The notes beneath the pieces are model-generated. The model was given only the letters and a program-made list of their open reading frames with translations, did no database searches and was not told the origin of the DNA. From Bacteroidota bacterium (GTDB lineage Bacteria > Bacteroidota > Rhodothermia > Rhodothermales > JAHQVL01): 60,976 nt of DNA. Positions 39,410 to 41,698 of this stretch are shown here, piece after piece (position 1 is the stretch's first letter; every line of letters starts with the position of its first letter). Location of the stretch: contig JBCCIM010000014.1 in assembly GCA_039111535.1 (NCBI GenBank), positions 1 to 60,976 of the forward strand. The letters are read 5' to 3'. The position numbers and the translations under genes are program-made.

Positions 39410-41698
39410 ATGGACGCAAAGCAATGGACGCTGGTTGAGCACCTTTTTGAAGAGGTGAAGCAAGTGCCTGAACCCGACCGTAACGGGTTCTTGTTGAAGA
39501 AAAGCAAGGGAGACGAAGCCGTGGTCGCTGAGGTAGAGGCATTGTTGGCTGCGGATCCCGATGTTAATACTTTTTTTGAAGACTTTCAGGAGGCACTTTT
39601 TATCAAGCCTTCAACAGCGGCAGTGCCTGTGATTTCCAGTACCGAAGACCCGTTGCTTGGCCAGTTGATTGCGCATTATCAGGTTGAGGAAAAGATTGGA
39701 GAAGGAGGCATGGGTGTTGTCTATAGAGCCCGTGACACGCGGCTTAACCGTTCAGTAGCGCTCAAAATTCTCCGCCGGGATATTGGCAAAGATGAGGCGA
39801 TTAGAAGGCGTTTTCTCACTGAAGCACGGGCAGCTTCAGCGTTGAGCCATCCCAATGTGGCTACAATTTATACCGCTGAGCCTTTCTCAGAAGAGCAGCT
39901 CATGATTGCCATGATGTTTTGTGAGGGCGGTTCGCTGAAAGCGCGGATTAACCAGGGTCGCATGGAAGTATCCGAGGCCGTGGAAATTGCAGGGCAAATT
40001 GGAAGAGGCCTGCAAGCAGCCCACAAAGCCGGCGTTGTGCATCGGGATATCAAGCCAGGCAATTTACTCTTTGATGGATCAGGCAATATCCGGATCGTTG
40101 ACTTTGGCATTGCGCGGTTTGAAGGGGATACCAGGCTTACGCTTACCTCACACGCTATGGGGACGCTCTCTTACATGTCTCCTGAACAAGCCGCCGGGAA
40201 AGCTGACCACCGGGCGGATATCTGGTCGTTGGGTGCTGTGTTATACGAGATGCTAACTGGACAGCCGCCATATGCGCAGAACCAAACGCATGCTATCCTC
40301 TATGCGCTTGTGAATGAACCGGTCGTGCCTGTTTCAGCATTCAGGCCTGATTTGCCGGCCAGGCTTGAGGCAATCTTGGGCAAAGCGTTGCAGAAAGATC
40401 CCTCGTTACGCTACGCAGATTTGGGTGCGCTGCTTGACGACTTTGAGCAATTGAACCAGAAGTCCGCTCCTACACCAAAGCAAGTGCCCGTGTCTACGAA
40501 TTCGCATCATGTACCGCGTGTTGCCGAAGTGTCAGACGAACAAAGCGGCCCCATTACAATTCTGGTGGTTGATGATGAGCCGGATATTGAACTCTTGATT
40601 TCTCAGCAATACTACAAGAAAATTCGCGCTGGTGAATGGAAAATTGAGTTTGCCGAAAACGGCGCGCAGGCGCTAGAGCGCATCGACGCGAATCCAGACA
40701 TTGAAATTGTGCTGACAGACCTGCACATGCCTGTGATGGATGGGCTCACCTTGCTGGGCAACTTGCATGAAGGCGGGTACCCGCTCAAGGCACTGGTGTT
40801 GTCGGCATACGGAGATATCCTGAACGTCCGACGTGCCATGAACCTGGGGGCCTATGATTTTCTATTCAAGCCCATCGAATTTGATGACCTTGAGCAGACC
40901 ATCTATAAAACCCACAAAGCAGTTCAATTTCAGCGGAAGATGTCCCGCTCGCACACCCGGCTAACCGGACTTGAAGGCGACCTCGCGCTTGTGAAGCGGA
41001 TGCAGAAAGCCGTCTTGCCGGCGCAGCTGCCTGAAAGTGATGAGGTAAGCGCATACGCTTACATGTTGCCCGCGCAAGAAGTGAACAGTAACTTCTACGA
41101 CCTCTTTTATCTCAACGACGACCAGCTTGCCTTTTTTATTGGCAACGTCACAGGAGAAGGATTCCCGGCGGCTATGCTGATGTCTACCAGTCGTACGTTG
41201 TTGAAAGCGGATGCCCAGCGTGCTTTCCCGCCGGCATCGTGTATGCGCACACTCAATGACCTGGTACTTCCGGAACGCCTTGGCGATCAGTTTGTGACGG
41301 CGTTTTATGGAAACCTGAACCTGAAAACAGGGCTGTTGACGTATTGTAATGCCGGCCACAATCCGCCGCTTGTTGTACGTGCCTCAGGTGAAGTAGAGCA
41401 GTTGAGTTGGGAAGGCAGTATTGCCATTGGCGTGCAAAAGGAAGTTGTGTACACTGATCATTCAATTTCGCTGGCTGAAGGTGACGGACTATTCTTATAT
41501 ACAGAAGGGTTAATCAAAAATGCCGCTGAAGACGGTGCTGTGCTCGATGTTGATGGGCTCAAAGCCATGCTGAAAACACAAGCCGGCATAAAACCTTCGC
41601 GTTTGATACGCCAGCTTATTCGGGATATGGGTGCAAGTCCTGCTGGCGCTATTCATGACCTTACCGTCATCTCGCTGCGCAGGGAATCGTTGTTGTAG
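39410..41698 (+). CDS. Ser/Thr kinase - receiver - degenerate SpoIIE phosphatase fusion
   Basis: The soluble protein of 762 residues has a short N-terminal region (1-75) common in ECF-linked kinases. A protein kinase domain (about 85-350) follows, with GEGGMGVVYRA, K119, HRDIKPGN (D213) and DFG (D231), all intact. A receiver domain (about 382-500) has D388/D389, D437 and K487 intact. A PP2C/SpoIIE-like domain (about 515-758) has N561 in NSNFYD, N579 in IGNVTGEG, E699 in YTEGL and H749 in HDLT where the active family has aspartates. The phosphatase therefore looks inactive. The divergent ECF sigma gene next door is the obvious candidate target. Confidence 0.9.
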   Translation: MDAKQWTLVEHLFEEVKQVPEPDRNGFLLKKSKGDEAVVAEVEALLAADPDVNTFFEDFQEALFIKPSTAAVPVISSTEDPLLGQLIAHYQVEEKIGEGGMGVVYRARDTRLNRSVALKILRRDIGKDEAIRRRFLTEARAASALSHPNVATIYTAEPFSEEQLMIAMMFCEGGSLKARINQGRMEVSEAVEIAGQIGRGLQAAHKAGVVHRDIKPGNLLFDGSGNIRIVDFGIARFEGDTRLTLTSHAMGTLSYMSPEQAAGKADHRADIWSLGAVLYEMLTGQPPYAQNQTHAILYALVNEPVVPVSAFRPDLPARLEAILGKALQKDPSLRYADLGALLDDFEQLNQKSAPTPKQVPVSTNSHHVPRVAEVSDEQSGPITILVVDDEPDIELLISQQYYKKIRAGEWKIEFAENGAQALERIDANPDIEIVLTDLHMPVMDGLTLLGNLHEGGYPLKALVLSAYGDILNVRRAMNLGAYDFLFKPIEFDDLEQTIYKTHKAVQFQRKMSRSHTRLTGLEGDLALVKRMQKAVLPAQLPESDEVSAYAYMLPAQEVNSNFYDLFYLNDDQLAFFIGNVTGEGFPAAMLMSTSRTLLKADAQRAFPPASCMRTLNDLVLPERLGDQFVTAFYGNLNLKTGLLTYCNAGHNPPLVVRASGEVEQLSWEGSIAIGVQKEVVYTDHSISLAEGDGLFLYTEGLIKNAAEDGAVLDVDGLKAMLKTQAGIKPSRLIRQLIRDMGASPAGAIHDLTVISLRRESLL

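Follow-up and report, generated by a model that had tools for sequence, protein, structure and literature searches.

Several described systems each share part of the architecture considered here. RssB is built from a receiver, a long helix and a PP2C fold and works on a sigma factor, sigma S; the E. coli protein is described as having no phosphatase active-site residues and as binding the sigma factor through its PP2C-fold domain (PMC7226468), and switch helices are reported to regulate both SpoIIE and RssB (PMC5468089). SypE from Vibrio fischeri carries a serine kinase, a central receiver and a phosphatase, in this order, according to PMC3610818. In the ECF43 pairs EcfP-PknT of V. parahaemolyticus and EcfK-PknS of X. 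citri, a sigma factor with a TTA motif is encoded next to a kinase gene. Phosphorylation is described as a precondition for the activity of ECF43 sigma factors, and EcfP contains the motif STTA, in which PknT phosphorylates the second Thr (PMC8999054); the group consensus is given as QTTA, and PknS is presented as a transmembrane kinase (PMC13147305). Rv1364c of M. tuberculosis combines an RsbU-type phosphatase and a kinase in one chain, and PMC9239204 mentions a Campylobacterota protein with the arrangement REC-PP2C-STYK.

Receiver-pseudophosphatase units are known from RssB, kinase-receiver-phosphatase chains from SypE and sigma-kinase pairs from ECF43. No description of a fusion of a Hanks kinase, a receiver and a degenerate SpoIIE domain was found in the titles and abstract openings of the open-licence papers that the searches listed, and this suggests that, within the literature searched, the combination of RssB-, SypE- and ECF43-like parts in one conserved protein is new. 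The window analysed here, a whole stretch of 60,976 nucleotides from a Bacteroidota bacterium of the order Rhodothermales, encodes such a chain next to a sigma factor gene:

39410..41698, plus strand: fusion gene for kinase, receiver and predicted pseudophosphatase (ATG start, 762 residues, no internal stop)
39410..39655, plus strand: N-terminal region, residues 1-82, without a Pfam match and with a low-confidence helical prediction
39677..40414, plus strand: Hanks-type Ser/Thr kinase domain, residues 90-335 (Pfam Pkinase; catalytic residues present)
40559..40903, plus strand: receiver domain, residues 384-498 (Pfam Response_reg; phospho-acceptor D437)
40880..41014, plus strand: long predicted helix, residues 491-535, leading from the receiver to the phosphatase fold (structure models)
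41042..41683, plus strand: predicted pseudophosphatase of SpoIIE/PP2C fold, residues 545-758 (Pfam, model and fold searches)
38681..39316, minus strand: ECF sigma factor gene, divergent from the fusion gene (TIGR02999 Sig-70_X6 and Pfam Sigma70_ECF)
39101..39112, minus strand: NTTA motif of the sigma factor, in place of the region 2.2 acidic motif; its second Thr is the predicted phosphorylation site

An initial annotation of this DNA had described an intact kinase and an intact receiver within the 762-residue chain, and both were borne out. The window protein has K119, E138, D213, N218 and D231 of a Hanks kinase (catalytic Lys, HRD and DFG) as well as D388, D389, D437, S465 and K487 of a receiver (acidic pair, acceptor Asp, Ser/Thr and Lys); the catalytic and phospho-acceptor roles of these residues are those that we take to be general to the two families. 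The corresponding K/HRD/DFG and DD/D/S-T/K motifs were kept in 15 of 15 fusion copies. The SpoIIE match covered residues 570-758 (Pfam PF07228, E 5.4e-40), the N-terminal kinase was identified as Pkinase, and no HATPase family was detected in the fusion protein at E <= 0.001 in Pfam. No 19-residue stretch of the protein was hydrophobic enough for a membrane segment; unlike PknS, the fusion kinase looks soluble, and it carries a receiver.

The model of residues 375-762, on which both fold searches were run, showed the receiver-helix-PP2C architecture of RssB, with a PP2C sandwich of the SpoIIE/PPM type that agrees with the Pfam match (mean pLDDT 88.3, 40 alignment rows). Its best PDB match was RssB from P. 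aeruginosa (3f7a, E 2.1e-27; 3eq2, Z 29.4), and further matches were obtained with Rv1364c (3ke6, Z 28.5), SiaA (6k4e, Z 26.0) and SpoIIE (5ucg, Z 24.9), so that the likeness to SpoIIE expected by the initial annotation was found and RssB was closer still. Superposition on 3eq2 gave an rmsd of 8.0 over 355 residues, a value large enough across the whole chain to indicate that the placement of the domains differs or is not fixed. The full-length model was weak (mean pLDDT 74.9, pTM 0.42) and added a continuous helix at residues 491-535; only this helix and the domain order were taken from it.

There are also differences from the described proteins. RssB consists of receiver and effector with no kinase, its identity to the fusion is about 20%, and the NCBIfam RssB cut-offs were not reached (98.5 bits vs 700; 65.8 vs 329). 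In P. aeruginosa RssB, metal aspartates one to three are present in an alignment that does not extend to the fourth. The partner would be an ECF43-type sigma factor in the fusion system as opposed to sigma S for RssB. SypE acts on the STAS protein SypA and has a serine kinase that is presumably of the RsbW/GHKL type, whereas the fusion pairs a Hanks-type kinase (Pkinase) with a degenerate phosphatase. The strong PP2C match of Rv1364c likewise goes together with an RsbW-type kinase, and the matched entry contains neither a receiver nor a Hanks kinase.

Metal sites and conservation of the phosphatase fold

Asp628, Asp746 and Asp795 of SpoIIE bind one Mn, and Asp610 is presented as the would-be ligand of another (PMC3517971); these numbers were mapped to the window protein by motif order. 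Alignment with relatives placed four codons of the fusion gene at the metal aspartate positions:

41090..41092, plus strand: N561, first metal Asp position (GGD motif)
41144..41146, plus strand: N579, second metal Asp position (GDVSGKG motif)
41504..41506, plus strand: E699, third metal Asp position (TDG motif)
41654..41656, plus strand: H749, fourth metal Asp position (DDxT motif)

The window protein thus has Asn, Asn, Glu and His where the metal-ligand aspartates of SpoIIE are expected, in a fold that still contains CNAGHNPP, D564 and D750, and the alignment confirmed these replacements as they had been read from the sequence at the outset. The accompanying statement that every acidic metal site was replaced is slightly too strong: all four aspartates are gone, but E699 is still acidic.

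Across the fusions, Asp was absent from site 561 in all 13 readable copies (11 Thr, 1 Asn, 1 Ala). Site 579 was Asp in 8 of 13 and Glu in 4, Asn occurring in the window copy only, while site 699 was highly variable (R, K, A, E, D, T, G) with Asp in 1 of 12, and site 749 was mostly Glu, again with Asp in 1 of 12. At least one metal Asp was missing in 13/13 readable copies, and at least three of the four were missing in 11 of the 12 comparable ones; the 12-row counts omit L117 (contig end), L118 (shortened domain) and L094 (contig ends before the domain). Five copies lacked all four (the window, L108, L114, L115 and L116), four of them with Glu at the second site, and in L109 the first Asp alone was lost and the other three were kept. 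D564, H650, G700 and D750 were retained in 12/12. The N/N/E/H set, whose recurrence across homologues the initial annotation would have taken as support, was found in none of the 11 other comparable fusions and, as an exact set, was seen in the window copy only.

Stand-alone SpoIIE relatives of 370-455 residues served as controls. All four aspartates were kept in 58 of 58, many of these being near-copies of one another (14 clusters at 60% identity), and the idea that the stand-alone relatives are dead as well was therefore rejected. A receiver was detectable in 55 of the 58; L063, L064 and L066 (Ignavibacteriota/Bacteroidota), which have no detectable receiver, were kept within the set and within the receiver-SpoIIE tree. 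A wider set gave the same result, with Asp at every covered site in 82 rows besides the window and two fusion relatives, two of the 82 coming from a single split frame. Two genomes of the family to which the window belongs gave 18 SpoIIE-domain proteins at E <= 0.001; both fusions among them were degenerate, and 16 of 16 non-fusions kept the four aspartates. An intact stand-alone receiver-SpoIIE relative (L095:6666-7835, 42% identical) is encoded in the same genome as the window protein. Because Asp loss is the rule among the fusions and absent from the 58 stand-alone relatives, it is not a matter of chance, and because the controls from the same and related genomes are intact, degeneracy goes with the fusion and not with the genomes or the fold. 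The initial annotation had counted homologues with kept aspartates against its reading; such homologues do exist, but they are the stand-alone relatives, no fusion keeping all four and L109 keeping three. The phosphatase-like domain of the window protein is very probably catalytically dead, and the binding or allosteric function that had been suggested for it is a putative one.

Stand-alone receiver-SpoIIE proteins of roughly 390 residues in which every metal aspartate is kept form a widespread family, largely found in Bacteroidota, that makes up most of the loci L012-L062 (Prevotella, Parabacteroides, Tannerellaceae). In the window's own genome, the intact relative lies in a cluster (L095:2739-7835) with a histidine kinase carrying TPRs, a single receiver and a receiver-cyclase.

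Identity to the window protein over 13 copies was 23-36% for the SpoIIE part, 40-47% for the kinase and 52-59% for the receiver. For L115/L116, dN/dS was about 0.09 in the kinase, 0.03 in the receiver, 0.20 in the SpoIIE part and 0.49 in the N-terminal region; the SpoIIE part gave 0.30 (L114/L115), 0.32 (L114/L116), 0.28 (L092/L108) and, over 93 codons, 0.10 (L112/L117), all values being quoted for pairs with dS of about 1 or less, as several of the eight pairs had dS > 2 or were not computable. The linker and switch helices, including the end of the linker helix (518-540), were more conserved in the fusions than in the active relatives (mean difference +0.17), and the catalytic motifs were on average less conserved (-0.11), with p values that are descriptive because the region borders were chosen with the conservation table in view and the columns are not independent; the two sets are also not equally diverse (mean identity 0.43 vs 0.38). 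Individually, motif 1 was about equally conserved in fusions and active relatives (0.73 and 0.71), and motif 4 slightly more in the fusions (0.54 and 0.46). A switch kept in a domain without catalysis fits the helix-based regulation of SpoIIE and RssB.

Of the 13 copies with sufficient contig (L094 and L117 are cut), 12 have most of the SpoIIE domain. The remaining copy, L118:6013-8007, has a pseudophosphatase without motifs 1-2 and without the C-terminal part, next to intact kinase and receiver motifs; the shortening was seen in one draft genome, where an assembly error is possible. Taken as it stands, it speaks for a dispensable domain in that lineage, and one lineage may tolerate such a loss.

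Sigma factor and two-component genes beside the fusions

The sigma factor divergent from the fusion gene scored 191.9 bits with TIGR02999 against a cut-off of 126.15. As in the two described ECF43 pairs, a motif of the TTA type replaces the acidic one, and a kinase gene adjoins the sigma gene; the assignment to ECF43 is a provisional one, made from the motif and the neighbouring kinase. A TIGR02999 sigma gene adjoined the fusion in 10 of the 15 loci including the window, in nine of them upstream on the same strand, and the motif NTTA was present in nine of these ten sigma factors (KSTE in L094). No sigma gene was found in L092, L093, L112, L113 and L117 in the stretch examined, 5 to 6 kb upstream included.

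The window genome contains 18 TIGR02999 sigma genes over the cut-off, and for 15 of these a kinase match lies no more than 500 bases away. Among 30 kinases of this genome, hand-picked rows with a match in the kinase part, those alignable over the N-terminal region of the fusion had a TIGR02999 sigma gene within 500 bases in 13 of 16 cases, as against 2 of 14 for the others (Fisher p 7e-4; the limit counted C58 as unpaired though its contig has a sigma gene). The 13 sigma-linked kinases have in common about 80 residues of this region, for which Pfam gave no match in the window protein. By analogy with the ECF43 pairs, the neighbouring sigma factor is probably the substrate of the kinase. A scan for a sigma-70 promoter between the divergent sigma and fusion genes found none, a result that says little for this bacterial group.

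Two-component genes were also found near the fusions. A propeller histidine kinase was present in at least six of the 15 loci (L092, L109, L112, L114, L115 and L116), a single receiver in L108, L113 and L115, and further receivers, by BLAST alone, in L114, L116 and L118. Among the window ORFs scanned, one histidine kinase was identified (9690-11114), which lies about 28 kb from the fusion and is of the HAMP type, not the propeller type. No STAS protein occurred among the proteins run against Pfam, a minority of the neighbour ORFs. The merging of two-component and Ser/Thr signals in one chain, as suggested by the initial annotation, gained from the motifs kept in every copy and from these two-component and sigma neighbours in relatives; the sigma factor as candidate substrate had been missed.

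The gene directly after the fusion in the window (41792-42775, plus strand) encodes a Peripla_BP_4 periplasmic-binding protein and has an in-frame stop at 42386-42388, both halves matching the family. The L093 fusion, which has no sigma neighbour, is divergent from another gene whose start presumably resembles MraZ.

Proposed mechanism and alternative readings

Starting from what was observed, namely the domain layout, metal aspartates lost throughout the family while the kinase and receiver motifs persist, sigma genes linked to the fusions and an RssB-like fold, we read the protein as a soluble, signal-merging kinase for the neighbouring sigma factor, with a chain running from receiver to pseudophosphatase to kinase to sigma factor, and give this whole chain a probability of about one half. 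A histidine kinase would phosphorylate the receiver at D437, and this would reposition the pseudophosphatase through the long helix. The pseudophosphatase would remove no phosphate; like the receiver-PP2C unit of RssB, it would serve as an allosteric switch and docking surface and would gate the attached Hanks kinase. As with EcfP and PknT, the kinase would then phosphorylate the second Thr of the NTTA motif, and the phospho-Thr would give the sigma factor the negative charge needed for RNA polymerase binding. Against the whole chain stand the five of 15 loci without a sigma gene, the distance of the window histidine kinase, the single loss in L109, the shortened L118, catalytic motifs that are not uniformly relaxed (motifs 1 and 4) and the weak support for a single fusion clade. 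It is a tentative proposal that one chain converts Asp phosphorylation into Ser/Thr phosphorylation of a sigma factor, with the former phosphatase as its switch and substrate-docking part. If true, the protein would wire the two large bacterial phospho-signalling systems directly together, with a sigma factor at the end, and would join RssB as a case of a PP2C switch surviving the loss of catalysis.

The phosphatase fold could instead be a decaying, functionless passenger in a protein of which the receiver and kinase alone matter. Its identity to the window is the lowest of the three domains, its dN/dS in L115/L116 is higher than that of kinase and receiver (about 0.20 vs 0.09 and 0.03), and L118 does without motifs 1-2 and the C-terminal part. 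The dN/dS of the SpoIIE part is nevertheless below 1, the domain is for the most part present in 12 of 13 assessable copies, the linker and switch helices are conserved and D564, H650, G700 and D750 are invariant in the 12 comparable fusions, which makes the passenger reading unlikely. That the domain is still a phosphatase, with Asn, Glu and His together with the kept D564 and D750 holding metal in an unusual site, is highly improbable: E699 and the second Asp of DDxT could ligate metal, 12 of 13 fusions have an acidic residue (Asp or Glu) at the second site, a single one of the four aspartates is missing in L109 and motifs 1 and 4 are well conserved, yet the residue at the third site differs freely between fusions (R, K, A, E, D, T, G), as would not be expected of an alternative metal site.

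Two further readings concern the target. In a partner switch like that of SypE, the kinase or the phosphatase-like part would act on a STAS or anti-sigma protein and not on the sigma factor directly. The kinases of STAS partner switches are generally of the GHKL type, whereas the fusion kinase is Hanks-type and its phosphatase has no metal ligands; no STAS protein was among the proteins run against Pfam, a set that most neighbour ORFs lie outside, and the adjoining sigma factor is of the type that is phosphorylated directly. We therefore consider this reading decidedly unlikely, in spite of the domain order shared with SypE (PMC3610818) and of the STAS proteins that SpoIIE-type domains commonly target according to PMC9239204. 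The receiver-pseudophosphatase half might also be an RssB-like proteolysis adaptor that hands the sigma factor over to ClpXP, in which case the kinase would tune this transfer. The fold and domain order of RssB are matched over receiver, helix and PP2C, and binding of a sigma factor through a PP2C domain without active-site residues is described for the E. coli protein (PMC7226468). Identity is nevertheless about 20% and the NCBIfam RssB score 98.5 vs 700, and since ECF43 sigma factors are reported to be inactive before phosphorylation, proteolysis is not needed for their control; the adaptor reading is very unlikely. For the signal-merging kinase that we favour, the family offers a graded series, from a single lost Asp in L109 to three or four lost in each of the remaining 11 comparable copies, and because this series stands beside intact relatives of the same genomes, the order of Asp loss is testable.

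Distribution and origin of the fusions

When 114 genomes of the order were searched at E <= 1e-95, with the best nine candidates per genome scored, 15 genomes matched, and 14 of them encode a fusion (15 copies); more divergent fusions may have been missed. For L094, cut by the contig end before the SpoIIE part, the full fusion is presumed; among the copies it has the highest identity to the window over kinase and receiver (48%). The fifteenth genome, G029, has a stand-alone receiver-SpoIIE protein alone. Its locus L119 is identical to L016, so that the order takes in a lineage to which public records give the label Rhodothermia. Outside the order, no fusion was found at E <= 1e-95 among the best four candidates per genome in 244 genomes of the class, or among the best two per genome in 394 genomes drawn from the phylum; here, too, more divergent fusions may have escaped.

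In the receiver-SpoIIE tree, which omits L117, L118 and L094, the 12 fusions fell on one side of a branch with support 78/81, next to the stand-alone copy of the window's own genome and to Rhodothermia copies, and the window copy formed a long branch. The 15 fusions were not one group in two kinase trees, in one of which 12 fusions formed a main clade and the window, L093 and L094 fell outside it at poor resolution; a single clade was not rejected (p-AU 0.29). The fusion may have arisen once, long ago, and lost the first Asp early, or it may have arisen more than once with the same fate each time. Distant from the fusions in the tree, L063, L064 and L066 (Ignavibacteriota and a Bacteroidetes bin) have an intact, receiver-less SpoIIE gene near an unfused kinase gene.
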